Below, in pieces: positions 15,291 through 31,933 of a stretch of DNA of 64,000 nt (positions within the stretch are counted from its first letter, which is position 1; each line of letters opens with the position of its first letter). The position numbers were made by a program, and so were the translations under genes. Source of the DNA: Desulfobulbaceae bacterium (GTDB taxonomy: Bacteria; Desulfobacterota; Desulfobulbia; Desulfobulbales; SURF-16); assembly GCA_002868945.1 (NCBI GenBank), contig PKTX01000006.1:46963-110962 (forward strand), read 5' to 3'. The notes beneath the pieces are model-generated. The model was not told where the DNA came from, made no database searches, and worked only from the letters and a program-made list of their open reading frames with translations.

Positions 15291-15465
15291 GTATAATATG
15301 GGCAGGAGTTGAGCGTTCCGCCTTCCCGGCAAGAGTGATGGGGCGGTCGGCTGCGGGAGGGAGCAGACGGCTGGTGCGATGCGGAGACAACGTGAGAGAG
15401 AGGGGTGCTTGTTTGAAGCAGCCAGTGCAGTGCAAGGAATAATGAGATTACAGGGAGGATTTATC

Positions 15466-16578
15466 ATGAAAAAAAATGTATCAAGACATATGCTGACGGC
15501 CATTGTGGCCCTCAGCGCTGCCGTGGCCCTGCCGAGCCTGGCCATGGCCAAGGTGAGCGGTGCCTGCGGTGACTGCCACACCATGCATAACAGCCAGGAT
15601 GGCGCGGCCATGGCCAGTACCGGTGTTTTTGGCACCAGCACGCCTGCCGATGACAGCGCCAATGGCGCCCTGCTGCGCTATGGCTGTGTTGGTTGCCATA
15701 CCGGTGATAACTCCGGCGGCGATGTGCCCTTTGTGCTGGCCAGCACAGCGCCGACCTATGGCACGAACACCCTGGCCGGTGGTAACTTTTATTGGGTTAC
15801 GACTACCGATAATACCGGTCACAACGTCTTGGATGTGGCCAATGGAGATGGTGCGCTTGGGGACACTCCTCCAGGCGGCGCGGCCCTGACAAGTCAGCTG
15901 ACCTGTGCCGGCACCATGGGCTGTCACGGTGACCGCAGCGAGGAAGATCAGTTCGGCGCCGTGGCCGGCGGCCATCATGGCCCTGGTAATGCGGCCACCA
16001 ACGGCTATGTGTCCGGATCCGGCACTGATATGTCGGATGCCTTCCGCATGCTGGCCGGTATCGAGGGGATCGAGGATGCCGACTGGGAATATACGGCCGA
16101 CGTTGCTACCGGTGACCACAATCTCTACAAGGGTGCCTCGCGAACTGATGAGACGGATGACGCCACCACCATCAGTTCCCTCTGTGCCCAGTGTCATGGC
16201 GAGTTTCATAACGGCGTGGGCAATGTCAGTAGCGCCACCTTCGGTTCTCCCTGGGTGCGCCACCCCACGGATTTTGATATGAGCGCCCTGGCCACCACCT
16301 CCGAGTATGCCGGATATACCGACTACAGCCTGGAGGCACCTGTGGCCGTTGACACCATGGATGGCTCAACGGATCTTACCGCTATCAATCATGCCGGTGG
16401 CCTGGGGGATGCGGCCAAGACAGGCGACTCCATTGTTACCTGTGTCTCCTGTCATCGGGCCCATGGCTCTCCTTATGCCGATCTGCTGCGTTGGGACTAC
16501 AGCACCATGGATGCCCATAACGGTACCACCGGTAATACCGGTTGTTTCAACTGTCATACCACCAAGGATGATGCATAA
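15466..16578 (+). CDS. OmcS-like hexahaem extracellular cytochrome (nanowire-type)
   Basis: 370 aa with a clear Sec signal (AALPSLAMA-like, cleaved before KVSGACGDCH). There are six haem sites in order: CGDCH, CVGCH, CAGTMGCH (C-x4-CH), CAQCH, CVSCH and CFNCH. Landmarks match what I recall of Geobacter OmcS, whose subunits polymerise into filaments: first haem followed by TMHNS, GGNFYWV with GHNV, FRML, RHPTDF, and CVSCHRAHGS with a C-terminal last haem. The third site is the expanded C-x4-CH, unlike the CxxCH of OmcS. Start at the ATG after AGGGAGG; the track's upstream extension lacks a signal. A terminator-like hairpin follows. Filament formation is inferred from family resemblance. Confidence 0.83.
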   Translation: MKKNVSRHMLTAIVALSAAVALPSLAMAKVSGACGDCHTMHNSQDGAAMASTGVFGTSTPADDSANGALLRYGCVGCHTGDNSGGDVPFVLASTAPTYGTNTLAGGNFYWVTTTDNTGHNVLDVANGDGALGDTPPGGAALTSQLTCAGTMGCHGDRSEEDQFGAVAGGHHGPGNAATNGYVSGSGTDMSDAFRMLAGIEGIEDADWEYTADVATGDHNLYKGASRTDETDDATTISSLCAQCHGEFHNGVGNVSSATFGSPWVRHPTDFDMSALATTSEYAGYTDYSLEAPVAVDTMDGSTDLTAINHAGGLGDAAKTGDSIVTCVSCHRAHGSPYADLLRWDYSTMDAHNGTTGNTGCFNCHTTKDDA

Positions 16579-16835: not shown

Positions 16836-17001
16836 ATGATGGACTCGCAAAAAGTCCATAGTACCGCTAAAGATGGCTAAGTAAAAAGTTTGATATGCAA
16901 GGCATGGTGGTGTCGCGAAAGCGGAAGCATGCATGTGTTATGTTGAGCATTTCGCGATCCCGCCATAACGCAGCAGATCAGACTTTTTGCGACGCCATCA
17001 T
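16836..17001. mobile_element. MITE-like element, family D
   Basis: The terminal repeats ATGATGGACTCGCAAAAAG and its imperfect complement at 16981-17001 (GACTTTTTGCGACGCCATCAT) enclose about 125 bp. An interior hairpin module (TTTCGCGATCCCGCC) is visible. No ORF. It lies between the OmcS-like gene and the 16-haem gene, ending about 30 bases before the latter. Confidence 0.7.
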
Positions 17002-17033
17002 ATCATGGGGGAGATATGTTGGGAGGAGAGACG

Positions 17034-18773
17034 TTGAAGGAAAAAAGTCAAGCTGTGGGCCGCCTAGTCCGCCTGGTGCCGATATTGCTGGCCCTGTTGT
17101 CCATGATGGGCTGTATGGGGTCGGCTGAGCCCAGCCTGGCGTCGTCGTCTGACGTCATTAACGTTGTGTCGCCGCCGAACAACGTCTGGGTCACCGGTGA
17201 GAAGCTTTATCTGGCCGGTGTCGTCACGGACGCCGGCCTGACGGAGCTGAAGATATCCGGTGTCTCCAACGATGCCCGCAAGAATATGATCAAGGTGGAC
17301 AATAAGGCCTTTGGCGTCATGCTGAGCTTGTCGAAGGGCAAGAACACCATTCGTCTGACCGCCGGCGCCCAGCAGCAGCAACTGACGCTCTACTACCTGC
17401 CGGAAAAGGATCTGCGCAAGGGAGCCTCCCCTCCCAAGGGTTATAAACGTTTTTATGTTCACAAGAACCCCTCTGCCCTTGATTGCAAGGAGTGTCATCG
17501 AGTGCGGCGGGGTGCCTATGATTTCAAACGCAACGTGCCGGCCCGGGCCAACTGCACCACCGGCTGTCATACCGACATGGGCAAAAGCGCCCATGTCCAT
17601 GGCCCGGTGGGCGCCGGGGTCTGCATCTCCTGTCATAATCCCCATGGCTCCTACAATCCCATGTCACTGGCCCGCACCGGCAAGGAGATGTGTGTCGTCT
17701 GTCATCAGGCCAAGATCGAGGAATTTGACGATGCCGTGGTCCATACCCCGGTAGAGGAGGGCTGTGTCTCCTGTCACAATCCCCACGAATCTGCCATGCG
17801 CTTTCAACTGCGCGGCAATGGCGCCAGTGTCAGCAGTCTCTGTTTTAACTGTCATGAGGCGGCAATCTTTACCAAGAGTCATCGTCATGGTCCGGTGGGG
17901 GCGGGTGACTGTATTGCCTGCCATACACCCCATGCCGGCAAACATGAGAGTCTCCTCATCGCCGCGCCGGACAAGGGCGAGGTCTGTTTTCAGTGCCATA
18001 AGGATCGGCAGCAGGAGTTTACCATGCGGCATGTCCATGCCCCGGTGCAGGATAATTGCAACAAGTGCCATGATCCCCACAGCTCCGAGGCCCGTTTTCA
18101 GCTGCACAAGGAGGGCAGCCAGCTCTGTGCCGACTGTCATGAACAGATGAGTCCGGAGCTCTATAAGACCATCAAGACCTCCAAGTATAAGCATCAGCCG
18201 GTGGATGAGGGGCGCTGTACGGATTGCCATCGGGCCCATTCCTCAGACGTCAAATCCATGCTGAAAAAGGATACCGAGCAGCTCTGCTTTACCTGCCACG
18301 ATGAGCTGGCCGATCACGTGGCCGGCAGTGATTTCCGGCACGGCCCCGTACAGACCGGTGATTGCATGGCCTGTCATGATGTGCATGGCTCTAATAACAG
18401 CCGTATCCTCAGCAAATATTTCCCGGAGGAATTCTATAAAGAGTATCGGCCCGAGAACTATGAACTCTGCTTTGGTTGTCACAACAAGGATATTGCCAAG
18501 AAGAAATTCACCAAGACCCTCACCAATTTTCGGGACGGCGAATACAACCTGCACTACTTCCATGTCAACATGAAGAAGGGCCGTAACTGTGTGGCCTGCC
18601 ATGATCCCCATGCCAGCACCCAGACCAAACATATCCGTACCGAGGTCCCCTTCGGTGCCTGGTCGTATCCTATTTCCATTACCAAGACGACCAATGGCGC
18701 CACCTGTGTGGTGGGCTGTCATGCCCCGAAGACCTATGACAGGAAGAGACCACAGATCAAGCCAAGCAGGTAG
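17034..18773 (+). CDS. 16-haem c-type cytochrome, probable lipoprotein
   Basis: About 579 aa. A hydrophobic signal ends in LLSMMGCMG, so Cys lipidation is possible though the lipobox is imperfect. A beta-sandwich domain (VINVVSPPNNVWVTGEKLYL onward, about 110 aa) precedes a dense haem region with 14 CxxCH and two C-x3-CH (CTTGCH, CVVGCH) motifs. Repeats of the form VHGPVGAGxCxxCHNPH mark the doubled-CXXCH family. It probably forms a periplasmic or surface haem wire between inner-membrane donors and the surface. I prefer the TTG at 17034, which has GGAGGAG five bases upstream; the track's ATG at 17016 has too short a spacing. It is followed after 79 bases by the beta-barrel gene. Confidence 0.85.
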   Translation: MKEKSQAVGRLVRLVPILLALLSMMGCMGSAEPSLASSSDVINVVSPPNNVWVTGEKLYLAGVVTDAGLTELKISGVSNDARKNMIKVDNKAFGVMLSLSKGKNTIRLTAGAQQQQLTLYYLPEKDLRKGASPPKGYKRFYVHKNPSALDCKECHRVRRGAYDFKRNVPARANCTTGCHTDMGKSAHVHGPVGAGVCISCHNPHGSYNPMSLARTGKEMCVVCHQAKIEEFDDAVVHTPVEEGCVSCHNPHESAMRFQLRGNGASVSSLCFNCHEAAIFTKSHRHGPVGAGDCIACHTPHAGKHESLLIAAPDKGEVCFQCHKDRQQEFTMRHVHAPVQDNCNKCHDPHSSEARFQLHKEGSQLCADCHEQMSPELYKTIKTSKYKHQPVDEGRCTDCHRAHSSDVKSMLKKDTEQLCFTCHDELADHVAGSDFRHGPVQTGDCMACHDVHGSNNSRILSKYFPEEFYKEYRPENYELCFGCHNKDIAKKKFTKTLTNFRDGEYNLHYFHVNMKKGRNCVACHDPHASTQTKHIRTEVPFGAWSYPISITKTTNGATCVVGCHAPKTYDRKRPQIKPSR

Positions 18774-18852
18774 CGGAGAGGGGAGCCGGTTTGTGTAGCA
18801 GGTTGTAGCGGCCTGGCCCGAAAAAATCGTGACGGAAGGGAAGAACAGGGAG

Positions 18853-20922
18853 ATGCAGGAAAGAAGAAAGTCTCGCTGTCTTATTTGTCTGCCACTTCTT
18901 TTTTGGGCCTTGATCAGCGCCGTGCCGGGCCATGCCGGCCAGGACCTGACGGCCAACTGGAGCCATGGTGACGGCAAGGATGAGGTGGCCACGGATGACT
19001 ACTTCATAACCTACACCCTTGACCTGAAACAGGAGGTCACCGAAGCCATGTCCCTGCACGAGGCACTCCGTTACAGCACGAGCTGGCGTGAGGAGCGTGA
19101 CAGCCAGAGCCTTGATCCCAGTCTGCGCTTTGCCGTGACCAATGATCTCTTTCTCTTTGAACTCTTTGGGGCGGCCAGCCGGCAGCGCAACTCCGAGAGT
19201 GCCGATCAGAAACGGGCCAACTGGGAGGCCTCCTGGACCAGTGCTTGGCAGAAGCGCTTCTGGCCCACCCTGCGGGCTACTTATGGCGAGGATTGGCAGG
19301 AAGATGACAATTCTCCTAAGATCACGGATAAAGAGACAAAAAACGAGACTGTTGCCCTGGAGTGGGATCTGGAGCTGTTGAAGGCCTATTATAACTACAG
19401 CCGAAGCCGTTTTTTCGACAATGCCGGTGATCGTCAGAATGAGAATACCAACAATTTTGCCAAGCTGGAGGCCGCTCACACCTTCTGGCAGAACCGTCTT
19501 AATCTCGGCTTTTCCCACCAATACTCCGAAACACGCGATATCTCCACCACCAACCTTGTCGGCACGGCAACATCTGCCCTGGTCAAACAGGGGCTGGCCC
19601 AGGTCCTCCATGGTTTGGATTCCACCCCTCTCACCACCACCTCCGGCGAACTGACCTCGGAGGCCGCCCTGCATGACGGCGATCTGGAGACCGCCTCGGC
19701 CCTGGTCACCAACGGCATTGATACGCCGCCCCATACCGTGGCCGTTAAGGTGGATTTCAAGAAGATTGACAGGCTCTATCTCTATAGTCTGGATGATGAG
19801 GCGGCGGCAGCCGCCGGTTTCACCTTTGCCTTTTATACCAGTGATAACGGCACGGATTGGCAGCTGCAGACCACCTCCCTGCCTTTTACCTATAACAGCA
19901 CGGAGAAACGGTTTGAGTTTGTCGTGCCCGGCACCGCCTCCCAGTGGCTCAAGCTGGTTGTCACCAGCAGCCCCCTGGCCACGGTTGAGTTCAGTGAAAT
20001 CGAGGCATATCAACTTGTGACAGGCATCAATGAGGCGGAATTGACCTCGACCTCGTCAAGCATGATTACGGATGTCAATGTTGGGGCGCGGCTCACTGAA
20101 GCTCTTTTTATGACTTATAACCTCTCGTTCGAGGATGGCGAGTATGGTTCCGGTGTCGATTATGACCGCTTCAGCCAGGCCGGCCAGTTGCGTTGGCAGG
20201 CCATGACCGACCTCTCCGCCAGTTTGGCTGTTAATGAGTCGAAATCTCGTAATGGTGATGCAGATCAGTCCACCACCCGTTCCTATTCCATAAATATGAA
20301 TAGTGTTCCCCTGGAAACCGTCGACGTCAATATGGGTATGAGCAGGTCGGAGAATTATCGAGGCGGGGATCGTCAGTCGGTGAGCCATATTGTCGGCCTC
20401 TATACCACGGCAGCCCTTTATCCGGATCTCGACGGCAGTTTGGATGTGAATTACAGTCACAAGAAAGATGATGAGACAGAGCTGACCAGCAAGAATTATC
20501 ATACGGTCTTGAGCCTGACCGCCCGGCTGGTGCCGGGATTGACCGCTGATTTGACCACCGATTACCAGCACAGCCTCGGTGATGAAGGCGCAGAGAGTAC
20601 CGGCGCCAATCTCAGTCTCAACTGGCGGAGCAGTGAGATGCTTTCCATTAATATGTCGGCCAACAAGCAGTGGCAGGGCAGTGAAAGCCAGAGCGAAGGG
20701 GCGGCATTGTCGCTCTCCCTTGCCCCCACCGCCACCACCCAGTTTTCGCTGAGTTATAACTATGCCATGACAGAGGAACGGATCAACAGATATGCCGCTT
20801 TTGGCAGTTGGTCCCTGGGCCCCCATTTTACCCTGCAGGGTACCGGCAGCTATGCCGAAAGCCAGGGCATGGAGGAGTGGCGCATTCAGTCGCAACTGGT
20901 GGCCAGATTTTCGGTGATGTAG
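18853..20922 (+). CDS. Outer-membrane beta-barrel protein with discoidin-like insert
   Basis: 689 aa. A signal peptide (LPLLFWALISAVPGHA) is followed by many alternating polar/hydrophobic strands with aromatic girdles (YFITYTLDLKQEV, LFLFELFGAA, KAYYNYSRSRF), typical of a beta-barrel. Around residues 235-385 lies a soluble domain that looks like F5/8 type C (discoidin-like): AALHDGDLETA, TVAVKVDFKKIDRLYLYS, FYTSDNGTDWQLQ, WLKLVVTSS and VEFSEIEAYQL. The strands then resume to the C-terminus (ARFSVM, not the usual terminal Phe). Position after the 16-haem gene suggests the barrel of a porin-cytochrome conduit or an export pore; this is inference. ATG 18853 has GAAGGGA upstream; the track start is a GTG without a ribosome site. 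Confidence 0.75.
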   Translation: MQERRKSRCLICLPLLFWALISAVPGHAGQDLTANWSHGDGKDEVATDDYFITYTLDLKQEVTEAMSLHEALRYSTSWREERDSQSLDPSLRFAVTNDLFLFELFGAASRQRNSESADQKRANWEASWTSAWQKRFWPTLRATYGEDWQEDDNSPKITDKETKNETVALEWDLELLKAYYNYSRSRFFDNAGDRQNENTNNFAKLEAAHTFWQNRLNLGFSHQYSETRDISTTNLVGTATSALVKQGLAQVLHGLDSTPLTTTSGELTSEAALHDGDLETASALVTNGIDTPPHTVAVKVDFKKIDRLYLYSLDDEAAAAAGFTFAFYTSDNGTDWQLQTTSLPFTYNSTEKRFEFVVPGTASQWLKLVVTSSPLATVEFSEIEAYQLVTGINEAELTSTSSSMITDVNVGARLTEALFMTYNLSFEDGEYGSGVDYDRFSQAGQLRWQAMTDLSASLAVNESKSRNGDADQSTTRSYSINMNSVPLETVDVNMGMSRSENYRGGDRQSVSHIVGLYTTAALYPDLDGSLDVNYSHKKDDETELTSKNYHTVLSLTARLVPGLTADLTTDYQHSLGDEGAESTGANLSLNWRSSEMLSINMSANKQWQGSESQSEGAALSLSLAPTATTQFSLSYNYAMTEERINRYAAFGSWSLGPHFTLQGTGSYAESQGMEEWRIQSQLVARFSVM

Positions 20923-21080
20923 CTCCTGTGCAGCGCGGTGGGGAAAAATAGATTACCACGGAGTTTCAGCCGGTTTGACTACCATGACAGCCTGTTGTTT
21001 ATTCGAGGTGATTGGCAGGAGCTCACCCCTGTGAGCGATGAACACTAATGGATATCTTGAAGAATGAGGCGTACATACCT

Positions 21081-21650
21081 ATGAAGAGGATAGTGGTACT
21101 GTTGCTGCTGCTGGCCATGGTCACCGGCGGCTGCGCCCGGCGGGGCGGCCTGGAGAGCTTCAGCCGGGAGAATATCGATATCGGTTTTGTCAGGACCATT
21201 GCTGTCCTGCCTTTACAAAATAACAGCAACGATGAGTATGCCCCGGAACGGGTGCGCAATATCACCATGACCCAGGTGCTGGGTCGCGGTATATTTGATG
21301 TGGTGGACAAGGGGGTGGTGGATAGTCTCCTGCACGAGGAGGCTATTGACCCGGGCAAACCGCTGGACCGCCAGGCCCTGCGTCGTCTCGGCCAGCGTCT
21401 CAACGTGCAGGCGGTGATGCTCGGCACCATTGATCTGGCCGATGAGGGGCGCAAGGGCTCGGTGGTCTATCCCCTGCTCTCCGTGACCATGCGTCTGCTG
21501 GAGGTGGAAAGCGGTCTGGTCATATGGCAGGCCAGCGCCAGCGCCAGCGGTGATTCGATCTGGCGGCGCCTCTTTGGTCTGGCGGCGGTGGGCCGCTTTG
21601 AATTGACCCTTGGTCTGGTGGATAAAATGCTGGCCACCATTCCGCAATAA
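21081..21650 (+). CDS. CsgG/LpoB-like outer-membrane lipoprotein 1
   Basis: About 189 aa. The signal ends at a lipobox (VTGGCARR), so it should be a lipoprotein. The mature part has RTIAVLPLQNNSND, RVRNITMTQVLGRGIFDVVDKG and LNVQAVMLGTIDLADEG, the pattern of the CsgG/LpoB/GNA1162-like fold (nucleotide-binding-like alpha/beta domain found in envelope assembly lipoproteins). CsgG itself forms the curli export pore; whether this relative forms pores is unknown. It is the first of three such genes in a row between the barrel and the isomerase. Start chosen at MKRIVVLLLLL rather than the upstream ATG because of the compact signal peptide. Confidence 0.65.
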   Translation: MKRIVVLLLLLAMVTGGCARRGGLESFSRENIDIGFVRTIAVLPLQNNSNDEYAPERVRNITMTQVLGRGIFDVVDKGVVDSLLHEEAIDPGKPLDRQALRRLGQRLNVQAVMLGTIDLADEGRKGSVVYPLLSVTMRLLEVESGLVIWQASASASGDSIWRRLFGLAAVGRFELTLGLVDKMLATIPQ

Positions 21651-21654
21651 TGAA

Positions 21655-21756
21655 GGCCATCTTGAATAATTGCTATTTCGGAGTCTCGCAGGCTCGCTTA
21701 CCGGCCCGATTTTTTCGGCGCTACGAAAATAAAATATCTAATTATTCAAGATACCC
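21655..21756. mobile_element. MITE-like element, family A (102 bp)
   Basis: GGCCATCTTGAATAATTGC at the left and the complement of GGGTATCTTGAATAATTAG at the right, with the GTAGCGCCGAAAAAATCG-type interior. It starts four bases after the stop of the first CsgG-like gene and ends 15 bases before the next start codon. Confidence 0.8.
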
Positions 21757-21771
21757 TGAAGTGAGACGTTC

Positions 21772-23304
21772 ATGCCTCGACGCTTTAGCTGCATAGTGCT
21801 CCTGGTGGCGGCGACACTCTTGCTGGTGTCGCCGGCAGTGCACAGTCGCCAGTCCCGCATTGCCGTGCTGCCCATGGAAGACTTGAGCAGAGGAGGCAAC
21901 GGCCTTAATTATGGGGTGACGCAACTGGTCAGGGACAATTTGGCGAGCCGGGATCTGGCCGTGCTGGGGCGGGATGAGGTGCTGGCCTTTATGGTGAAAA
22001 ACAGGGTGCGCTGGTTGGGCCATCTCGGCTCCCGCTATATCCGGCGTCTGCATGATGATCTGGGGGTCGACTATGCCCTGCTGGGCTCGGTGAACCAGCG
22101 ACGCGACACGAAACCCTATGTTCTGGGATTAACCCTGCAACTGATCCGTACCGAGGATGCGCGCCTGGTCTGGGCCCACAGTGTGGAGCTGTGTGATGCC
22201 GATGAGATAGGCCTGCTGGGGTTGGCCGGCTCACAGGATCTGCAGGAGATGGAACGATTGGTGGTGGGTAAGGCCCTGCAGGGGCTGGCCGCTGACCTCC
22301 GGCAGTATGGTGGCCCCCTGGATATCCAGGAAGGGGTGGAGTCCGTTTTCCTGGGGCCGGAGATTGTCAGGCCCGGCGAGGAGGTCTCCTGCCGCATCAC
22401 GTTGAGCCTGTCGGCCAGCCAGCTTTATAACACCACGGTCTCTGTGTTTGTGGACGAGCGGATTGTTGAGGCCCGCTACAGCAGTGTTGACAACAGTTTT
22501 CAGGCCGTCTGGAACGCGGCCCCTGCGGATGGCCACTATCCGGTGCAGGTGGCCATCAGTCGGCCCGGTCAGCTGGATAAAGAGGTTCTGGTGGGTGGCT
22601 ATCAAGTGGATGGTCTGGCCCCGAGCTTGGCCCTGCAGGTCAAGGGCCAGGAACTCAACGGTGTTGTTGTTCTCCGGAAAAAGATCGATATGATTCCCCT
22701 GCTTAAAAATCCGGAACCAATCAGCCGCTGGCGGATGAGTGTGCGGGATGAAGAGGGCCTTGTCGTCATGGGCGATGATGGCCGCGCTGGTCTGCCTGGC
22801 CGCTTCTCCTGGTGGGGGCAGGCCAAAAGCGGTGCCTTGGTGCCTGATGGCTTTTATACCATTGAGCTGGAGGTGTGGGACCGGGTCGGCAACAAGGGGG
22901 CAGCCCGCCAGACTATTCAGGTGATCCGTCAGGAGCCGGAGATGCAGGTGGCCTTGAACGAGCAGGATGACAAGGTGGTGGTTCATCTCAACTATGCCGG
23001 CCAGATTCCTTTGGACTACTGGCGCCTGGAGATTCGTGACAAAGAGGGGGGGCTTATTTCCGAAAGTAGCGGTACCGAAGCCCCCGAGGGGCTGGAGCTC
23101 GCTTTGGCAGCCATGCCGTCCGGCAAGATAAGCTATCATCTCTATGCCCAGGATATGCTCGGCAACCGGCTGTTGCGGCAGGTTGATGCCATGGTCCCCT
23201 TGGCAGGCGAAGCGTCTGATGAAGGCGGCGATTTCCTGGCCGAAGCCGTGGCGGAGGAGCGCAGTAAAGTAATGGCGCGACAGGTATGGACCGAAGATTT
23301 TTAG
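21772..23304 (+). CDS. CsgG-like domain protein 2 with Ig/FlgD-like domains
   Basis: 510 aa. A Sec signal (IVLLVAATLLLVSPAVHS) precedes a CsgG-like domain (SRIAVLPMEDLSRGG, NYGVTQLVRDNLASRDLAVLG, VDYALLGSVNQRRD). From about residue 195 come beta-sandwich domains resembling FlgD/Ig-like modules (VRPGEEVSCRITLSLSAS, GFYTIELEVWDRVGNKG, DYWRLEIRDKEGG, ISYHLYAQDMLGNRL). No lipobox Cys is evident, so it is probably periplasmic or outer-membrane associated. It overlaps the next gene by 19 bases, a sign of translational coupling. Role in cytochrome or barrel assembly is inferred from the neighbours. Confidence 0.6.
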   Translation: MPRRFSCIVLLVAATLLLVSPAVHSRQSRIAVLPMEDLSRGGNGLNYGVTQLVRDNLASRDLAVLGRDEVLAFMVKNRVRWLGHLGSRYIRRLHDDLGVDYALLGSVNQRRDTKPYVLGLTLQLIRTEDARLVWAHSVELCDADEIGLLGLAGSQDLQEMERLVVGKALQGLAADLRQYGGPLDIQEGVESVFLGPEIVRPGEEVSCRITLSLSASQLYNTTVSVFVDERIVEARYSSVDNSFQAVWNAAPADGHYPVQVAISRPGQLDKEVLVGGYQVDGLAPSLALQVKGQELNGVVVLRKKIDMIPLLKNPEPISRWRMSVRDEEGLVVMGDDGRAGLPGRFSWWGQAKSGALVPDGFYTIELEVWDRVGNKGAARQTIQVIRQEPEMQVALNEQDDKVVVHLNYAGQIPLDYWRLEIRDKEGGLISESSGTEAPEGLELALAAMPSGKISYHLYAQDMLGNRLLRQVDAMVPLAGEASDEGGDFLAEAVAEERSKVMARQVWTEDF

Positions 23305-23888
23305 GCCTGTTGATCATGGTCGGGGTCACGGTCCTTTTTCTCGGGGGCTGTACCGCCTCGCGACCCTACCTTCAGGCCTATACGGCACAGGTGCCGGTAC
23401 AGGCCTGTAGCGTGGCGGTTTTGCCGGTTGTTAATCAGAGTGATTATGATCAGGGCGGCACCATTCTCCACCGTTTATTACTCAGTGCCCTGATAAATGA
23501 ACGCCCTTGGCGTCTGGCCCTTGAGGGGGATGTTCGCAAGATTTATCGCGAGTTGCATGTGCGGCCCTGGCAGCAGGCCAGCCCTGATCAGTTAAGGGTG
23601 CTCGGTTCACGGTTGGAGGTTGATCTGCTTATCGGGGGTAAAATTATAACAATGGAGGAGCAGATAAAGGGTGGCAAATTCAACCCACGTCTGAAAATTG
23701 AACTGCAGGTATATGACGGCGCAGACGGCACCCTGCTCTGGTCCACATATCACAGTAGAAAAGGCACGGATTATCGAAAATTAATGCATTTTGGCCTGAG
23801 CAACACGATTAGTGAGCTGGGCAAAAAGATGTTGAAGGAAATTCTGATATTATGGAAAGAAGAAGGTTTGTTGGCATGTCCCGAGTGA
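23286..23888 (+). CDS. CsgG/LpoB-like lipoprotein 3
   Basis: 200 aa. The signal ends in LFLGGCTAS (lipobox LGGC). The mature part, ACSVAVLPVVNQSDYDQGG, LHRLLLSALINERPW and LEVDLLIGGKIITMEEQ, resembles the first CsgG-like lipoprotein. It overlaps the upstream CsgG-like gene by 19 bases and the downstream isomerase by 13 bases, so the three products are probably made together. The function is unknown; the fold assignment rests on motif pattern only. Confidence 0.6.
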   Translation: MDRRFLGLLIMVGVTVLFLGGCTASRPYLQAYTAQVPVQACSVAVLPVVNQSDYDQGGTILHRLLLSALINERPWRLALEGDVRKIYRELHVRPWQQASPDQLRVLGSRLEVDLLIGGKIITMEEQIKGGKFNPRLKIELQVYDGADGTLLWSTYHSRKGTDYRKLMHFGLSNTISELGKKMLKEILILWKEEGLLACPE

Positions 23889-25507
23889 TATGGATGCTTG
23901 TTTCTCTGCTGTTGTGGGGAGGCATGAACCAGGAGGCCCATGCCTGGTTCTGGGATAAAGATGTCCTGGTCACCATCAACGGCACAAAGTTTACCGAGCA
24001 GGACTACCGGGACTGGTGGCGCAGCTGGCAGGAAGAAGATATGGCGGTGCCCGACTCCCTTGATGAGTTTGTCAACTGGCAGCTCTTGGCCCAGGAAGGA
24101 TTGCGGCTGCAACTGGACACCGAGCCGAGCTTCAGGCGCAAGGTGGAAACCTTTGTCAAGGTCCGCTCCTTGATGATGCTCAAGAATGAGGAGGTGGACG
24201 CCAAGGTAAATCCGAGTCATGAGCAACTGTGGGCCATGTATGAAGAGCAATACTGTCCGCGCTGGCAGATTGCCGTGTTTTTCTTTGCCACTGAAGAGCA
24301 GGCCCAGACCCAGGCCGCCGCTCTGCAGCAGGGAGAGATCAGCACCGAGGAGCTCAGGGAGCTTGGCCATGGCGAGGGTGGTCCCCTTTTTTATGAAGCA
24401 AAATGGCTGCGCGTCCCCCAGATAACAGAGGAGTGGTTTGCGGCGGTGAAGGGGCAGCAGCCCGGCCATATCACGACGCCGCAACCCATGGGCAACTATT
24501 TTATTATTCTGCATTTCATGGCGGAAAAGGGGCCGGACAAGGAAGATTTCGCTTCTGTGGAAAAATCCATTACCGCCAAGGTGAAGGATCGGCTCAGTGC
24601 CGACCGTACCGCGGCCCTGGTGGAAAAATTAAAGGAAAAATACCAGGTGGAGGTGGATGAGGAATTTCTGGCGGAAATCGACGAGACCCCCCTGGAGATG
24701 GAACGTGCCGAAAAACCGGTGATAACAACCAATGCGGGTGAGATAAGCGCTGGTGCCGTGCAGGCCATGATGGCCAAGGAACGTCAATTTCGCAAGCAAT
24801 ACAAGTTCGCAGCCGAGGATCCTGATCGGCTCAAAGAGAGGGTGGTGGCCAATATGCTCTCCCAGACCCTGATTTCCTGGGAGGCCATGGACCGCCATTA
24901 TGAAAAACGGCCGCCCTTTGCCGCGGTCTATGATTTTTATCGGAAGCACCGCCTTACCAAGGAGATTGAAAAGCGCTATATTAAACCGCAGGCCACTGTG
25001 GCTGAGGCTGAGGCCAAGGCCTATTATGAGGCACACCAAGATGAATTTTCTCATCCGGAGATGGTCAGCTATGTTCTGGTGGAGGCCGAGGAAAATCTGG
25101 TCAAGAGGATGCGGCGTGAAATAGCCGATGGCGCTGATTTCTTCAAGGTGGTGGACAAGCATTTCCCCGGCGGTCTGCCGGTGCAACAGATGCCGGTCAA
25201 CCATCTCGACCCGGCCCTCAGCGCGCCGCTTCTGGCTCTCAGCAAGGGAGAGGTAAGCATGCCTTTTACCATGAACAACAATGCCGCCATGGTCAGACTG
25301 GTGACCCGCAGGGCTGCCATGCCGTTGCCCTTTCCGCAGGTCAAGGCTGAGATTATCAAGAAGCTCGGCGACGAAAAGTTTACAGCCGGCCGTCGGGAAT
25401 TTCTTGATTTACTCAAGGAGAGATCCGTCATTACGGTGAATGAAAAAGTTTGGAACAGGCTACACAAGGAGCTCACACAACAACATGAATCCACGGACAC
25501 CCATTAA
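23876..25507 (+). CDS. SurA/PpiC-like periplasmic peptidyl-prolyl isomerase
   Basis: About 543 aa. A signal peptide (VIWMLVSLLLWGGMNQEAHA) precedes a SurA/PrsA-like layout: an N-terminal helical chaperone part (VLVTINGTKFTEQDY, LDEFVNWQLLAQEGLRL), a first parvulin-like domain (HEQLWAMYEEQY, GHGEGGPLFYEAKW) and a second (EAKAYYEAHQDEFSHPEM, LSKGEVSMPFTMNNNAAMVRL). Such proteins fold or escort exported proteins in the periplasm. From memory, a prolyl isomerase gene also occurs in other OmcE/OmcS-type nanowire clusters, which makes a role in cytochrome assembly plausible. Start at the ATG after AGAAGG; overlaps both neighbours. Confidence 0.78.
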   Translation: MSRVIWMLVSLLLWGGMNQEAHAWFWDKDVLVTINGTKFTEQDYRDWWRSWQEEDMAVPDSLDEFVNWQLLAQEGLRLQLDTEPSFRRKVETFVKVRSLMMLKNEEVDAKVNPSHEQLWAMYEEQYCPRWQIAVFFFATEEQAQTQAAALQQGEISTEELRELGHGEGGPLFYEAKWLRVPQITEEWFAAVKGQQPGHITTPQPMGNYFIILHFMAEKGPDKEDFASVEKSITAKVKDRLSADRTAALVEKLKEKYQVEVDEEFLAEIDETPLEMERAEKPVITTNAGEISAGAVQAMMAKERQFRKQYKFAAEDPDRLKERVVANMLSQTLISWEAMDRHYEKRPPFAAVYDFYRKHRLTKEIEKRYIKPQATVAEAEAKAYYEAHQDEFSHPEMVSYVLVEAEENLVKRMRREIADGADFFKVVDKHFPGGLPVQQMPVNHLDPALSAPLLALSKGEVSMPFTMNNNAAMVRLVTRRAAMPLPFPQVKAEIIKKLGDEKFTAGRREFLDLLKERSVITVNEKVWNRLHKELTQQHESTDTH

Positions 25508-27419
25508 GTTTATTCTTCTGCTGGTCCTGGCCGGCGCCCTGCTCTCCTGCGTAAAGGAGCAGCCGCAGCAGGCTCGGCGCAAGGGTTGCCAGGACTGCCA
25601 TGCGGAGATGGCCACTGCCCTGCAGCAGGGCAAGGTGCATAAGCCGGTGGCTGACAATGCCTGCGGCGCCTGTCATTTGCCGCATGGCGTCCTCGGCGGC
25701 ATCTTTCTGCGCCAGGAGCCGCCGGGCCTTTGTTATCGCTGTCATCGTCAGCTGGCAACGGCAGCGGCGGATGTCTCTGTTCATGAACCGGTGCGGCAGG
25801 GGCGCTGCGGGAAGTGTCATGCCAGCCATAACGCTCCCGAAGAGTATCTCTTGCAGGAGAAGGTTAACCAGTCGTGTTATGGCTGCCATGACCGGCGACT
25901 CTTTACGCGCCGGAATGTCCACCCGCCTCTTCAGGATGGGTGCACCTCCTGTCACAATCCCCACCATGCCGGGCAGGACAAGCTCCTGGTCAAGGAGGCG
26001 GATAGTCTCTGCCTGGAGTGTCATGAGAGTGGCGCGGCAACCTTTAAAGAGGCCCATTTCGGCTACCAGGCCGGCAGCGGTTGCGTGGGTTGTCATACCC
26101 CCCACAGCTCCGCAGGGCCTGGCCTGTTAAAGGCGGATACCCACATGCCCATGGCGCAGGGTAACTGTACATCCTGCCATGCGGAAGATGATACGGGTCT
26201 GCTCGTGGTGCCGGACAAGCCTGACACACTCTGCGTCTCGTGCCATGAGCAGGTGGTTGACCAGTCGGCAGGACGTCACCAACCGGTGATGGATGGATCG
26301 TGCCGCAGCTGTCATGCCCCGCATGCCAGTGAGGAGCGCCACCTGCTGGCCATGGCCCCGGAGGAGCTCTGCCTGCAATGCCATAGTGACGAACATGCCG
26401 CCGCGATGCGCAGCAGTCATGAGCCCTTTGACAAGGGGCAGTGTCTTGCCTGTCATACCGGCCATGGCAAAAAGGAGAATAACACCCTGAGCGCCGAGCC
26501 GGCCCTCTTGTGTGGCCAGTGCCATGCCCCTGAGCAGTATGGCCGGGGAGAGTTCAGTCATGCCCCGGCAAATAGCGGCGAATGCCTCACCTGCCATGCA
26601 CCGCACAACTCCAAAGAGAAGCGACTGCTTGTCGACCGCGACGGTGATATCTGTGTGGGATGTCATCAGGAAACAGCGGAAGAGCTTACCATGTTCAGTC
26701 TGCATATGCCCTTTGCCGCCGGCGAGTGCAGCCGCTGCCATGCGCCACACCAGGGCGAGCGGGCCGACCGCCTGCTGGCACCGCCGGAAGAAGGCCGGCT
26801 CTGCCTCGATTGTCATAAGGAGAGCCGCCTGGAACAGAAAAAGGAGCATGGCCATCTGCCCTTTGTCGAGGGAAGTTGCCAAAGCTGTCATGAACCGCAT
26901 GCCAGCAATACCTCGTTCATCCTCAAGCAGCCGGCCGGCGCCCTTTGTCTTTCCTGTCATCCTGATGTCAATGCGGTGGCGGCAGCCGACCATGTCCATG
27001 CCCCTGTTGCGGCAGGGAACTGCGGCGTCTGCCATATCGGCCACGGCTCCGGTAACAACAATCTGCTTATGAAGGATAAGCCGGATCTCTGTCTCACCTG
27101 TCACCCGGATATTGCTCGGTATTGGCAGGATGGCGTGGCCCATGCCCCGGCCCGTGAGGATTGTGGACTCTGCCATCAAGCCCATGGCGGCGAGCATGCC
27201 CGTTTGCTTGTCATGGATGCCACACAGCTCTGCTTTTCCTGCCATGAAAAAAATGGCCGCTTCAACAATGTCCACCAGGGCATTGAGCCACCGGGCTCAT
27301 CGTGTCTCACCTGCCATGACCCGCATGGCGGGGCGGATAAAGGCCTCCTTTATCCGGTTCACCATACGCCGTTTGACAAGGGGGGCTGCATGGCCTGTCA
27401 TAGGGAGGAGAGCACATGA
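25485..27419 (+). CDS. 26-haem c-type cytochrome lipoprotein
   Basis: 644 aa with 26 CxxCH motifs, about one haem per 25 residues. The signal peptide ends at a lipobox (LLSCVKE), so it should be membrane-anchored. The body is an array of doubled-CXXCH units of the form H-x-P-x(5,7)-C-x2-CH-x-PH ... LC-x2-CH (for example HMPMAQGNCTSCH, LCVSCH; HEPFDKGQCLACHTGH, LCGQCH). There is no other domain, so it is in effect a haem wire, likely lining the periplasm or outer surface. It overlaps the isomerase gene by 23 bases and the next cytochrome by ATGA. The start is the ATG of MNPRTPIKF, with AAGGAG 13 bases upstream; the longer track start lacks a signal peptide. Confidence 0.88.
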   Translation: MNPRTPIKFILLLVLAGALLSCVKEQPQQARRKGCQDCHAEMATALQQGKVHKPVADNACGACHLPHGVLGGIFLRQEPPGLCYRCHRQLATAAADVSVHEPVRQGRCGKCHASHNAPEEYLLQEKVNQSCYGCHDRRLFTRRNVHPPLQDGCTSCHNPHHAGQDKLLVKEADSLCLECHESGAATFKEAHFGYQAGSGCVGCHTPHSSAGPGLLKADTHMPMAQGNCTSCHAEDDTGLLVVPDKPDTLCVSCHEQVVDQSAGRHQPVMDGSCRSCHAPHASEERHLLAMAPEELCLQCHSDEHAAAMRSSHEPFDKGQCLACHTGHGKKENNTLSAEPALLCGQCHAPEQYGRGEFSHAPANSGECLTCHAPHNSKEKRLLVDRDGDICVGCHQETAEELTMFSLHMPFAAGECSRCHAPHQGERADRLLAPPEEGRLCLDCHKESRLEQKKEHGHLPFVEGSCQSCHEPHASNTSFILKQPAGALCLSCHPDVNAVAAADHVHAPVAAGNCGVCHIGHGSGNNNLLMKDKPDLCLTCHPDIARYWQDGVAHAPAREDCGLCHQAHGGEHARLLVMDATQLCFSCHEKNGRFNNVHQGIEPPGSSCLTCHDPHGGADKGLLYPVHHTPFDKGGCMACHREEST

Positions 27420-28585
27420 AGATTCGCATAGGCATACTCACCCTGATCATTCTGCTCGGTGCCGGTGGTGTGGTGACGGCAGCCCCGGGCAAGACCTGTA
27501 TCAGCTGCCATCCGCAAGAGGATTTCACCGGCAAGATCGTCCATAAACCCGTGGCCCGCGGTCAGTGCAGTCAGTGTCATAATCCCCATGTGGCCAAGTA
27601 TGACAACCTGTTGAGCCACCAGGGCGGCGCACTTTGCTACTCCTGCCATGGCGAGGCCCGCGCCGCCTTCAGCGAGGGGGTTCAGCATCAACCCGTAAAA
27701 GAGGGGAGGTGTCTGACCTGTCACAGCGCCCATGTCTCGGCGGAAAAGGGTTTATTGCGGGGGCCTGTGGCCGACAGCTGCTTCAGTTGCCATGAGGATC
27801 TGGCGGCCAGGCAGTATAAGGTCAAACACAAGCCCTTTGCCGAGGGTGACTGTACTGCATGTCATCAGCCCCATCATGCCGATAATTTCCAACTCTTAAA
27901 GAATGATGGCGACCAGCTCTGCCTGGAGTGTCATAGCCGTCCTGCCTCCCTGGCCGGCCATCGTGGCTTTCCGGACGAAATCGGCCAGTGCCTTTCCTGT
28001 CATAATCCCCATGGCAGCGCCGGCAAGGGCTTGATGCGTGCCGCGCTGCATGCGCCTTTTGCCGAGGGGTGTACGGCCTGCCATGGAAAGGATTCCGCAA
28101 CAGGCATAGACCTCTGCCTCGGTTGTCATGCCGAAGTGGGCGAGCAGATGCGTGCTCCCCACTCCCATATGCTGGCCGGTGAAGGGGCCTGCGTGGCTTG
28201 CCACAGCCCCCATGCCGCCGATGTGGACGGTTTGCTGAAGGCCCCCTATGAACAGCTCTGCCGTTCCTGTCACGAGGCCACCATTGAGCGTAATCGGCGC
28301 AGCCTCCACCCCCATCCGGAGACTGAGAAGTGTACGGATTGCCATGCGCCGCATGGCTCGCCGCGTCTGGTCATGCTCAATGCGGATGGCAATGCCGTTT
28401 GTTCTCGCTGTCATGAGACCCAGGGGAAATTCAGCCATCCGGTGGGCAGTGAGGTGATTGATCACCGTACAGGTCAGGCCATGGATTGTCTGACCTGTCA
28501 CGATCCCATGGGCACCGAGTATCGCTATCACCTGAAACTAAGCGGCAAAAAGGCATTATGCGTCCAGTGCCACCGCAGCTATTAG
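27416..28585 (+). CDS. 16-haem periplasmic c-type cytochrome
   Basis: 389 aa. A Sec signal (LTLIILLGAGGVVTAAP) is followed by 16 CxxCH motifs in the same doubled-CXXCH pattern as the preceding 26-haem protein (VHKPVARGQCSQCHNPH, HAPFAEGCTACH, LCVQCHRSY at the end). It has no lipobox and is probably soluble in the periplasm. Start and upstream stop overlap as ATGA, so translation is coupled. The similarity in repeat pattern suggests that it and the 26-haem protein come from one amplified ancestor. Confidence 0.87.
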   Translation: MKIRIGILTLIILLGAGGVVTAAPGKTCISCHPQEDFTGKIVHKPVARGQCSQCHNPHVAKYDNLLSHQGGALCYSCHGEARAAFSEGVQHQPVKEGRCLTCHSAHVSAEKGLLRGPVADSCFSCHEDLAARQYKVKHKPFAEGDCTACHQPHHADNFQLLKNDGDQLCLECHSRPASLAGHRGFPDEIGQCLSCHNPHGSAGKGLMRAALHAPFAEGCTACHGKDSATGIDLCLGCHAEVGEQMRAPHSHMLAGEGACVACHSPHAADVDGLLKAPYEQLCRSCHEATIERNRRSLHPHPETEKCTDCHAPHGSPRLVMLNADGNAVCSRCHETQGKFSHPVGSEVIDHRTGQAMDCLTCHDPMGTEYRYHLKLSGKKALCVQCHRSY

Positions 28586-28593
28586 AGGAAGAA

Positions 28594-29502
28594 ATGGATA
28601 CTATCCGCTCCGTTAAAGCAGCCCCCCTGATGCCGATATGGCTTGTGGTCCTTGTTGCGACGATGATCTTTGCCGGGCAAGTTCCGGCCGCCGCTGCATC
28701 GGGGCCATGGAAATTGGCCTTCAGCCTCAACCATGAGAGTATCAACAGTGCCCTGCCCACCGCTCTTTATGTGGATGGTGACAAGGAGCGCTACTATATG
28801 GTGGACAGTGCCGGTGGCCAGCTCGTTTCCTTTGATAAAGAGGGGGCCTTTTTAACCGCCTTTCAGCCGGATGAGGGCCTGGACCGGCCCTTTGACCTGG
28901 TCAGGTTGAGTGAGGCGGTCTTGGTTGTCGCGGAAAAAGGGCCGAACAGCCTGACCGTCATTGATTTTGCCGGGCAGGAGACCAAACGGCTGCAGGTGAA
29001 AGATCAGGGGCGGCCGCTTATGGTGGACAGGCTGGAGATCGGCAACAACGGCCGCCTCTATGCCTTGGACCGTGCCAGTGGCCGAATCTACCGCCTCACC
29101 GACTCCTTTACCGTTGCGCAGCGCTTTGATCTGCCGGAAGAAAAGGAGGCCCTTGTCGATTTCAAGGTGGTTGGTGAGCAGATTTGGGCCCTGGGACAAC
29201 AGAAGAAGCGCCTTTACGTCTATCATGAAAACGGCCGGCTCAGCAAGCGTCTCGACGTAGCCGATCTGGTGGTCTTTCCCGTTTCTCTGGCTGTTGATGA
29301 GGCCGGTCTTATCTATATTCTTGATCGGCACCAGGGTACGGTGGTGGTCTTGGATCGCAAGGCCAAGTTCAAATATCGCTTTCTCGGCAAGGGGCATGGC
29401 CCCGGCCATCTTTATTACCCCATGGAGATTCGTTTTGATCCCTGGGGTCGTCTCTGTGTTGTTGATGAGGGCAATGGCCGGGTGCAGATCTTCCGGCGCT
29501 AG
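28594..29502 (+). CDS. Exported NHL/six-bladed beta-propeller protein
   Basis: 302 aa. A signal peptide (LVVLVATMIFAGQVPAAAAS) is followed by propeller blades (YYMVDSAGGQLVSFDKEGAF, GRLYALDRASGRIYRL, LIYILDRHQGTVVVLDRK, GRLCVVDEGNGRVQIF). The ATG at 28594 has GAGGAAG just upstream and begins 8 bases after the previous stop; the track's upstream start lies inside the cytochrome gene. It precedes the second OmcS-like gene by 8 bases. Geobacter omcS also has an NHL-repeat gene nearby, as far as I recall, so a shared role in nanowire biogenesis or docking is plausible. Confidence 0.82.
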   Translation: MDTIRSVKAAPLMPIWLVVLVATMIFAGQVPAAAASGPWKLAFSLNHESINSALPTALYVDGDKERYYMVDSAGGQLVSFDKEGAFLTAFQPDEGLDRPFDLVRLSEAVLVVAEKGPNSLTVIDFAGQETKRLQVKDQGRPLMVDRLEIGNNGRLYALDRASGRIYRLTDSFTVAQRFDLPEEKEALVDFKVVGEQIWALGQQKKRLYVYHENGRLSKRLDVADLVVFPVSLAVDEAGLIYILDRHQGTVVVLDRKAKFKYRFLGKGHGPGHLYYPMEIRFDPWGRLCVVDEGNGRVQIFRR

Positions 29503-29510
29503 GTGAGGAT

Positions 29511-30602
29511 ATGGTCTTAACAAGAGCTGCATGTATATGTCTGGTTGGGCTGCTGCTGGCCATGACCTGGCCGGCCTGGGCCAAGGTCAGCGGCCCCTGT
29601 GTCAATTGCCATACCATGCACAACAGCCAGGCCGGCAGTCCCATGGCCTATACCGTAAGCAGCGGTGTTACGACCTATACTTCCACACCCAACAAGGGGT
29701 TGCTCAACACCGATTGTGTCGGCTGCCACCAGGGCAGCAACAGTGGCGGTCCAGTGCCCTATGTCCTGGACGTCAGCCAACCTACATACGGGGCCACCGG
29801 CACCGAGGGCGACACCCTGGCCGGTGGCAACTTTTACTGGGTCAGCCAGGGGAATGACCGGGCCGGCCATAATGTTGCCGGGCTGGCCGGGAGTGACGTT
29901 GCGCACGGCAACCTGCCGCCCGGCTCCACTGACTCGGCACCCTTATCCCAGCTCACCTGCGCCGGCACCTACGGCTGCCATGGCGCGTCGACGGAGATTG
30001 ATGCCACCGTGGCACTGCTGGGCAGCCATCACGCCAATGACATGACTGCCTGGAACGACGGCAGCACGGTGGCCAAAAGCTATCGCTTTCTCGATGGTGT
30101 CCAGGGTTTGGAGGACAGCGATTACGAGTACCGGCCCACCAGCAGCGCCCACAATAAATATTATGGCGCAGATCGAACCGGGGAGACAGAGAGCAGTGGC
30201 ACCATAAGCAGCCACTGCGGTCGTTGTCATAATGATTTTCATAATGGCGTTGGCGAGATTTCCGAGGGCGTCTTCAGCAACAATGTCTGGCTGCGTCATC
30301 CCACTGATTTTGATATGAGTAATGCCGCCGGCTCCGAGTACGCCGCCTACAACGATTATCAGGGGGTGGGCACTCCCTATAGTGTCATTTCACCGGTGGC
30401 CACGGCCGATACCACCACAACCCTGAACCAGGCGGTGTATCAGCAGGCCGATGATGCCATTGTCATGTGTCTCTCCTGCCACCGGGCGCACGGCTCGCCC
30501 TATGACGGTATCTTGCGTTGGAACTACAAGAACTGGCCGTGTGAAAATGAAGGAACAGATTGTTTTAACGGGTGCGCCATATGTCATACGACCAAGGATT
30601 AA
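29511..30602 (+). CDS. Second OmcS-like hexahaem extracellular cytochrome
   Basis: 363 aa, paralogous to the gene at 15466. The signal (LVGLLLAMTWPAWA) is cleaved before KVSGPCVNCHTMHNSQ. Six haem sites in the same order and spacing: CVNCH, CVGCH, CAGTYGCH (C-x4-CH), CGRCH, CLSCH and CAICH. Shared landmarks are GGNFYWV, GHNV, RHPTDFDMS, CLSCHRAHGSPYDGILRW and CHTTKD at the C-terminus. Two versions of the same filament-type subunit in one locus may build different wires or a mixed one. It has a GGTGAGG ribosome site and overlaps the next gene. Confidence 0.83.
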   Translation: MVLTRAACICLVGLLLAMTWPAWAKVSGPCVNCHTMHNSQAGSPMAYTVSSGVTTYTSTPNKGLLNTDCVGCHQGSNSGGPVPYVLDVSQPTYGATGTEGDTLAGGNFYWVSQGNDRAGHNVAGLAGSDVAHGNLPPGSTDSAPLSQLTCAGTYGCHGASTEIDATVALLGSHHANDMTAWNDGSTVAKSYRFLDGVQGLEDSDYEYRPTSSAHNKYYGADRTGETESSGTISSHCGRCHNDFHNGVGEISEGVFSNNVWLRHPTDFDMSNAAGSEYAAYNDYQGVGTPYSVISPVATADTTTTLNQAVYQQADDAIVMCLSCHRAHGSPYDGILRWNYKNWPCENEGTDCFNGCAICHTTKD

Positions 30603-31933
30603 CCATACTTTGTTGCTGTCTGGTGATGAGCAGTGCCGTGGTTGTTATAGCGCCGCCTGTTCAGGCCGCCAGCTATCGTGATTCGGCTCACGGCTCCGCT
30701 GTTGACAGACCGGCCATGAGCGGTTACGCCATCGGTAACTGCGCTCACTGTCACGAGATGCATGCCAGCCTGGCCGGTGTCGAGCCGGAGCCTTCCGGCG
30801 GTTCCCCCCACCCCTACACAGTCTTTGCCGATAATTTCACCAGTGGCGCTACAGCCGGTTCCTATCTGGTGACTGATAATTTCTGCTTCTACTGTCACGG
30901 TGAAGGATTCGAAGTGGTGCAGGCCGTGGCCAATGCTGATTACAGCACCACTTTCGGCGGCGGATCGCTTGGCACCCTGCCGCAGTCCATTCTTGCCGCC
31001 TTTAATCAGACCTCCTACCATAACCTAGGTGATATCCAAACTTTTATGACCACCGGCGATGGGGCGGCCATGTCCTCCTGGTACACATCCTCTTCCAATC
31101 CCTGCAACGCCTGTCATAATCCCCACCTGGCCAAGAAAAACTTTGGAAGTAGTTCAGTTTTCAGTGCACCATTGGCCAGCGCCATCTCCAAGCCCGGCGA
31201 CCACTTCAATCTGTGGGGCGGGAGTGAGACCATGGCCGCCTATAGCGGCTATGAACCGCCCTATGCCGATAGGACCAGCGAGGCCAGGGAACCGGATGGG
31301 ACAGTGGTGGCGGCCGGCGGCGACGGTTCCGGCCAGGCGGCTAAGACGCCTGACTACATCGGCTTTTGCACCGATTGTCACAATACCACCAATACCATCG
31401 AAAGCTCCACCCTGCCCCCCACTCTGCGCCCCATTGATTGGTCCAGCAGCGGTGACAAGCATGGTGGCTTGAGCCGCGACGTCGGCATTGATATCCGCGA
31501 GCCCTTTGCCTCGGCCCAGGCAGGCACGACAAATTTTGTCCTCTCCTGTCTCGATTGCCATGAACCGCACGGCGCAAGCAATATCATGCTCTTGCGCAGC
31601 CGGGTCAATGGCGAGGATATGGGGCTGCGCGAGGTCTCCACCACCAATGACATGGGTGCCCTGTGTCAGCGGTGCCACAAGGATGATGCGGCTGCGGGGT
31701 ATGGTTCTGCCGATCAGTGGCGTTATATTCATCATGAATCCAGCGACGCACCTTATCCCGGGCCACCTAATTTTTGCAAAGGTTGCCATAATACGACTGC
31801 CGGTTATGCAACACCTGTAGCCGGGGCAAGTCAGCCCAGAATCCACTGTGGCCAGTGTCACTTTCACAACAGTGATGACAGCTGGATGCTCGGTGTCAGA
31901 AGCGAAGAATACACCGGCCGTACAACCTTTTAG
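30581..31933 (+). CDS. Octahaem exported c-type cytochrome
   Basis: 450 aa. A signal (LTILCCCLVMSSAVVVIAPPVQA) is followed by eight CxxCH motifs (CAHCH, CFYCH, CNACH, CTDCH, CLDCH, CQRCH, CKGCH, CGQCH) separated by long non-haem loops rich in Ser, Gly and Thr. Haem spacing is far looser than in the doubled-CXXCH proteins and resembles secreted outer-surface cytochromes. OmcZ is also octahaem, but I see no specific sequence match to it. It overlaps the second OmcS-like gene by 22 bases and probably works with it. ATG 30581 chosen; the track uses a GTG nine bases upstream. Confidence 0.8.
   Translation: MSYDQGLTILCCCLVMSSAVVVIAPPVQAASYRDSAHGSAVDRPAMSGYAIGNCAHCHEMHASLAGVEPEPSGGSPHPYTVFADNFTSGATAGSYLVTDNFCFYCHGEGFEVVQAVANADYSTTFGGGSLGTLPQSILAAFNQTSYHNLGDIQTFMTTGDGAAMSSWYTSSSNPCNACHNPHLAKKNFGSSSVFSAPLASAISKPGDHFNLWGGSETMAAYSGYEPPYADRTSEAREPDGTVVAAGGDGSGQAAKTPDYIGFCTDCHNTTNTIESSTLPPTLRPIDWSSSGDKHGGLSRDVGIDIREPFASAQAGTTNFVLSCLDCHEPHGASNIMLLRSRVNGEDMGLREVSTTNDMGALCQRCHKDDAAAGYGSADQWRYIHHESSDAPYPGPPNFCKGCHNTTAGYATPVAGASQPRIHCGQCHFHNSDDSWMLGVRSEEYTGRTTF

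Follow-up and report, generated by a model that had tools for sequence, protein, structure and literature searches.

The plus strand genes and their folds

Within a 64,000-nucleotide stretch of contig PKTX01000006.1 from a Desulfobulbaceae bacterium (hereafter the 64-kb window), the plus strand carries a single long cytochrome cluster (15463-33430). Inside it lie three genes, here called lpoA, csgGIg and lpoB (the trio), and the gene of a parvulin-type peptidyl-prolyl isomerase (PPIase), which are flanked by an outer-membrane beta-barrel gene (18829-20922) and by 26- and 16-haem cytochrome genes (Table 1). All four plus strand genes were found as described in an earlier, sequence-only reading, in which the trio was taken for two CsgG/LpoB-like lipoproteins and a CsgG-like protein with immunoglobulin (Ig)-like domains, and the whole for a possible export or polymerisation module for OmcS-like cytochromes. 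Here we compare this block with the osc cluster of Geobacter sulfurreducens as known from publications and from relatives of that species. The genes had also been read as an overlapping run into the PPIase gene, which is true of csgGIg and lpoB (19 bp) and of lpoB and the PPIase gene (37 bp), whose own end is overlapped by the following cytochrome open reading frame (ORF), but not of lpoA and csgGIg, which are 121 bp apart with a small inverted-repeat element filling most of the gap. The start of lpoA was placed at ATG 21081, with an alternative in-frame ATG at 21048, and its end at 21650. The csgGIg product (21772-23304) has a signal peptide and no lipobox, while the lipobox of lpoB is LGGC.

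The lpoA product matched the Pfam LpoB family at the cut-off (22.3 bits), and among the 16 members of its own family, 15 matched LpoB, 10 matched GNA1162-like and two matched CsgG (best 1e-4). The lpoB product is more diverged, with family members that match FlgT_M, LpoB and TolB_N, and csgGIg taken alone matched only FlgD_ig in Pfam. Profile comparison with hhalign gave probabilities of 97.9 and 97.8% for the N-terminal domain of csgGIg against lpoA and lpoB, respectively, and 99.4% for lpoA against lpoB, on the basis of which these domains are judged to be mutually homologous. In the AlphaFold2 model of csgGIg (pLDDT 80), an LpoB/PelC-like domain (residues about 25-182) is followed by three Ig-like domains (189-474). 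The best 50 matches of a fold search with this model were all Ig- or fibronectin type III-type proteins because the three Ig domains dominate, and the CsgG-like domain was therefore judged by profiles and secondary structure. In profile searches of the PDB, the first match of both lipoproteins was PelC (5t11, which we take to be PelC, for lpoA; 9h80, which carries that label, for lpoB), and csgGIg matched an Ig-type adhesin first and then LpoB (4q6z, E 0.005). No CsgG chain was among the PDB matches of any of the three profiles. Membrane hairpins were absent from the csgGIg model, in which the strands of the LpoB/PelC-like domain are only about 10 residues long, and the hhalign alignments of lpoA and lpoB to csgGIg, which were the sole basis for these two proteins, contained no insertion of the size of a CsgG hairpin. 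We accordingly rejected CsgG membership and assign the trio, by its profiles, to the CsgG/LpoB/PelC/FlgT superfamily; the earlier assignment of all three to this superfamily is borne out, but PelC and LpoB are the closest relatives and none of the three is CsgG itself. The SurA-like character of the PPIase, with PDB profile matches to HP_0175, SurA and PrsA, was likewise recovered.

The AlphaFold2 model of the barrel (pLDDT 84) has about 28 strands and a beta-sandwich inserted at residues 248-380. Its top structural match in the PDB was MtrB of the MtrCAB complex (6r2q_B, E 1.4e-11, TM 0.43-0.45), from which it differs by the inserted sandwich and an identity of 7%. Of the two OmcS-like cytochromes, B is recognisable by its match to OmcS itself (6ef8); A gave no phmmer match to 6ef8 at E 0.01 and is 47-48% identical to the OmcS-like genes of its relatives. 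In both, the third haem site is CX5CH and not CXXCH, which is kept in 15 of the 16 sequences compared (A5).

The osc cluster, its two forms and its distribution

The osc genes are the omcS-companion cluster of G. sulfurreducens with reported roles in the folding and secretion of the OmcS nanowire (Shen et al. 2025, Cell Chem Biol 32:239, as cited in PMC13194489 and PMC12977616). An eight-gene block, GSU2500-GSU2493, was connected with the maturation and secretion of OmcS nanowires and includes the 26-haem protein GSU2495 (PMC12977616). GSU2495 is OscI, GSU2494 OscJ and GSU2501 OscC, with folding attributed to OscH and secretion to OscE-G (PMC13194489). In a Geobacter-family relative with an OmcS of 73% identity to 6ef8 (G466), the block stands beside the OmcS gene and consists, in this order, of a propeller, a barrel, lpoA-like, csgG-like and PPIase genes, 26-haem and 15/16-haem cytochromes and an NHL protein. 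The register from OscD to OscK was fixed because it could be counted from the 26-haem gene. All eight gene kinds (propeller, barrel, LpoB/PelC-like lipoprotein, CsgG-like protein, PPIase, 26-haem, 16-haem and NHL protein) are present in the window locus beside OmcS-like cytochromes, of which 29511-30602 matched 6ef8 at 6e-13. By gene position, the block can be equated with the osc cluster, alias Oet. The order differs in two respects, the downstream position of the OscD-like propeller and the division of OscG between two genes, of which the first half carries the three Ig-like domains, and is otherwise retained. The window further differs in its additional 14- and 8-haem cytochromes and in its OmcS-like proteins, which are shorter (about 365 aa) and have the CX5CH motif. 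The core of PPIase, 26-haem, 16-haem and six-bladed propeller genes, together with a barrel and OmcS-like genes, is also that of the Oet or SEEP-SRB1 operon, which was reported in Desulfobulbia and other Desulfobacterota (PMC10553843, PMC5539420). As in that conduit, an MtrB-like barrel is encoded with the 26- and 16-haem cytochromes in the window, as far as genes can tell. The Oet papers describe an electron conduit, and the LpoB/PelC-like trio is undiscussed in their available text. As a kind of system, osc/Oet is already known.

In Geobacter-type loci, the interval between lpoA and the PPIase gene encodes one protein of about 350-505 aa, in which a csgGIg-type domain precedes an lpoB-type domain. 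In loci of the window type, a pair of genes corresponds to this fused OscG, Ig-like domains being encoded by the first of the pair, and the window lpoB aligns to the C-terminal half of fused OscG. A single branch of the lpoA (OscF) tree of 49 loci separates the fused from the split loci (support 98/94). The host genome also holds a second complete osc cluster (L143, contig C76:44000-63999), which is Geobacter-type: its OscG is fused, and it includes two OmcS-like genes of the 6-CXXCH kind. Judged from this tree and the gene structures, the fused and the split, Ig-bearing forms are separate clades that both occur in the host genome. We found no description of the split subtype, or of both subtypes in one genome, in the available literature, although Shen et al. 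2025 may contain them. A literature search joining OmcS with CsgG returned nothing, and for OmcS with PelC no title (titles only were considered) concerned nanowire export.

Two observations concern variants of these loci. In a genome of the same genus (G001), a single ORF of 1070 aa (L146:1388-4597) contains 42 CXXCH motifs, as many as the 26- and 16-haem proteins have together, which suggests a natural OscI-OscJ fusion. In several other families (L073-L075, L077, L078), csgGIg and lpoB are separated by the gene of a 5-CXXCH cytochrome. This cytochrome is possibly an alternative cargo; no known filament relative of it was found in the PDB.

A link to metal respiration is provided by Desulfurivibrio alkaliphilus, whose OmcS homologue DA_402 was up more than 100-fold when ferrihydrite was respired (PMC12545173); its haem motifs were counted there as CX2-5CH. 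Both published DA_402 primers match positions L027:13626-13709, inside the OmcS-like gene that immediately precedes the barrel and trio genes, and DA_402 therefore heads a split-type osc locus. The primer matches indicate that the genome in question (G024) belongs to D. alkaliphilus or differs very little from it. By numbering alone, DA_756 and DA_765 may bracket a second locus (L026). Expression of the osc genes was not noticed in the available text of PMC12545173. The window locus joins the Geobacter osc secretion genes, the Oet conduit of sulfate reducers and the iron-oxide-induced OmcS homologue of D. alkaliphilus, a union that was not seen in the literature portions available.

The order lpoA-csgGIg-lpoB-PPIase was kept in 20 of 20 loci of the host's order, with the barrel gene preceding it wherever the contig reaches, as well as in 24 named loci and in distant families of the phylum, allowing for contig ends. 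Because of this conservation, chance can be excluded as the origin of the gene block. The 26- and 16-haem genes adjoin the trio in every locus read through, and full-length csgGIg and OscG matches sit in a cytochrome cluster wherever their surroundings were read. In the class of Geobacter (244 genomes), OmcS relatives, counted at E up to 1e-30, were present in 47 genomes and an OscG homologue in 46, with both in 44 (Fisher 2e-42). In the phylum (395 genomes), full-length csgGIg was found in 33 genomes, 31 of which also have a clear OmcS-like gene. At the strict threshold this number was 25; a looser E-value, applied only to the eight negatives, gave six further clear matches and one partial match, so that their apparent lack of OmcS was a threshold effect. 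The two genomes left are G228, which is 89% complete, and G370, with the single partial match. The sequence-only reading had named two findings as evidence against itself. One was the lack of a CsgG-like fold, whereas all three proteins carry a domain of the CsgG/LpoB/PelC superfamily; the other was trio genes that are widespread without OmcS-like cytochromes, which is not the distribution observed, although the p-values overstate independence because the genomes are related. Close relatives within the host's order that lack csgGIg mostly lack OmcS-like genes as well. Among the exceptions, G001 and G033 (OmcS-like genes without csgGIg) carry a Geobacter-type osc cluster, and G011 gave a weak match.

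Proposed assembly route and competing explanations

Taken together, the module is probably devoted to folding, exporting and assembling the adjacent OmcS-like multihaem cytochromes and represents a form of osc with a split OscG. The idea of such an export or assembly pathway, put forward in the sequence-only reading, gains support from homology and from the positional osc match, but it was already proposed for osc and hence is not new. In the periplasm, the OmcS-like proteins would be held or folded by the PPIase (OscH). On the periplasmic side of the outer membrane, lpoA (OscF), lpoB and the LpoB/PelC-like domain of csgGIg may be arranged around the MtrB-like barrel (OscE) as PelC is under PelB, with lpoB and csgGIg acting as the two halves of OscG. 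The OmcS-like subunits would then leave the cell and form polymers on its surface, and wiring of the filament to the periplasm would fall to the 26- and 16-haem cytochromes. We infer ring formation, the barrel as the export path, the order of these events and the function in the Desulfobulbaceae host; the PelC-like geometry, with lipoproteins under a barrel, is suggested by superfamily and gene neighbourhood. In the PelBC system, same-superfamily lipoproteins are likewise encoded with an outer-membrane barrel for polymer export, but PelB is a 16-stranded barrel with tetratricopeptide repeats and the cargo is a polysaccharide (PMC12141448). The window, known here from its genes, has an MtrB-like barrel of about 28 strands and presumably a cytochrome as cargo. 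PelC-related, LpoB-like lipoproteins with lipoboxes (lpoA and lpoB) are present, whereas the surroundings differ from those of PelC, whose dodecameric ring sits on the PelB barrel and is encoded in a pel operon: no pel genes were seen beside the trio, and the adjoining barrel is not PelB. A 2025 review still terms the exit of cytochrome nanowires from the cell speculative (PMC12307469). The locus offers testable structural hypotheses in its PelC-like lipoproteins, its MtrB-like barrel and the halves of a split OscG, which are expected to cooperate, and two subtypes in one genome would allow cargo specificity to be compared. Doubtful but conceivable is a further step, in which PelC-type assemblies under an MtrB-like barrel form one outer-membrane complex that would first be the secretion route of the wire and afterwards the point at which electrons enter it; two ancient subtypes (fused and split Ig-bearing OscG) would work side by side in a cell and handle separate sets of OmcS-like subunits.

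Several observations weigh against nanowire export as the role of the module. The best structural match of the barrel, MtrB, belongs to an electron conduit and is no protein exporter; some OmcS-like paralogues are solitary, with no osc gene nearby (L148-L150); and the client of the trio is indistinguishable by co-occurrence because OmcS-like and conduit-like cytochrome genes share the block. Moreover, the osc match was drawn from close relatives of G. sulfurreducens and from the account of the primary study in two citing papers, and neither growth on anodes nor the reduction of Fe(III) oxide requires OmcS, according to reports noted in PMC13194489. The main competing explanation is that the trio and PPIase are assembly factors of a porin-cytochrome conduit (OetABI-like) that assist barrel insertion and cytochrome loading, while the OmcS-like genes cluster with them only through electron exchange with the conduit. 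It draws its strength from the MtrB-like barrel and from the fact that the conduit cytochromes and the trio were unseparated in the loci read. To our knowledge, MtrCAB-type conduits elsewhere are made without a comparable lipoprotein set, which speaks against it. In its favour, the SEEP-SRB1 operon has its core in the PPIase, 26-haem, 16-haem and propeller genes (PMC5539420), and the cluster was described as the Oet conduit (PMC10553843). On the other side, the osc genes reportedly take part in the folding and secretion of OmcS (PMC13194489), and on balance we consider conduit assembly unlikely.

Far less probable is that the trio forms a CsgG-type pore of its own, through which OmcS-like subunits leave without the adjacent barrel. 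The superfamily is shared and two of the 16 lpoA family members match Pfam CsgG, and in curli, too, the exported subunits polymerise outside the cell. Such a channel is not supported, however, because the closest relatives are PelC and LpoB and the pore-forming hairpins were not seen; a separate, large barrel gene also lies next door in the loci read. We give the least credence to the trio as activators of peptidoglycan synthesis like LpoB, or as envelope lipoproteins of a general kind, whose place in the cluster is accidental. In Pfam, lpoA matches LpoB best, and LpoB is also the best related PDB match of the csgGIg domain, but lpoA reached only 23.1 bits against the TIGR02722 equivalog cut-off of 110.55, and among solved structures both lipoproteins match PelC best. 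The context, too, is wrong for an LpoB function, which was rejected: full-length csgGIg and OscG matches lie in cytochrome clusters where their surroundings were read, and they co-occur with OmcS.

Feature coordinates and further observations in the window

Table 1. Features of the cytochrome cluster, with window coordinates and the evidence for each.
Feature	Coordinates	Strand	Evidence and remarks
OmcS-like cytochrome A, candidate nanowire subunit, locus head	15463..16578	+	371 aa; 5 CXXCH + 1 CX5CH; position of the DA_402 gene in D. alkaliphilus L027
14-CXXCH multihaem lipoprotein	17016..18773	+	Pfam Paired_CXXCH 2e-79, haem count, synteny
Outer-membrane beta-barrel, OscE/OetI position	18829..20922	+	AlphaFold2 model, MtrB match
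lpoA, PelC/LpoB-like lipoprotein, OscF position	21081..21650	+	Pfam LpoB; PDB profile match 5t11 4e-5; lipobox TGGC
MITE-like element, not a machine part	21659..21752		13-bp terminal inverted repeats ATCTTGAATAATT; in the lpoA-csgGIg gap
csgGIg, putative N-terminal half of split OscG	21772..23304	+	AlphaFold2, fold search, hhalign, fused homologues
lpoB, PelC/LpoB/FlgT-like lipoprotein, putative C-terminal half of split OscG	23286..23888	+	PelC 9h80 5e-6; alignment to the C-terminal half of fused OscG
PPIase, SurA-like N-terminal region and Rotamase_2, OscH position	23852..25507	+	Rotamase_2 7e-20, SurA_N_3 5e-4
26-haem cytochrome lipoprotein, OscI position	25440..27419	+	26 CXXCH, lipobox; 26-haem gene here in loci read through
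16-haem cytochrome, OscJ position	27416..28585	+	16 CXXCH; conserved order
NHL-repeat six-bladed propeller, OscK position	28486..29502	+	Pfam NHL 2e-9; conserved order
OmcS-like cytochrome B, candidate nanowire subunit	29511..30602	+	363 aa; 5 CXXCH + 1 CX5CH; phmmer to OmcS 6ef8 E 6e-13
8-CXXCH cytochrome	30572..31933	+	haem count, gene order
YVTN-type beta-propeller, OscD-like, downstream in the window locus	31961..33430	+	gene order

Upstream of the gene for OmcS-like cytochrome A, a sigma-54 response regulator is encoded (13576-14928), with an equivalent place in L023 and L026, and it is a candidate regulator of the cluster. A scan of the window for -24/-12 promoters gave matches no more frequent than chance.

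The element between lpoA and csgGIg, which resembles a miniature inverted-repeat transposable element (MITE), can fold into a hairpin. It is one of four copies in the window (21659-21752, 41463-41557, 46739-46871 and 59876-60084), all with the 13-bp terminal inverted repeats ATCTTGAATAATT, for which eight matches were counted in the window against 0.05 expected. Downstream of the cytochrome cluster, a GGGtGRT protein is encoded at 39497-40492 (E 6e-194).

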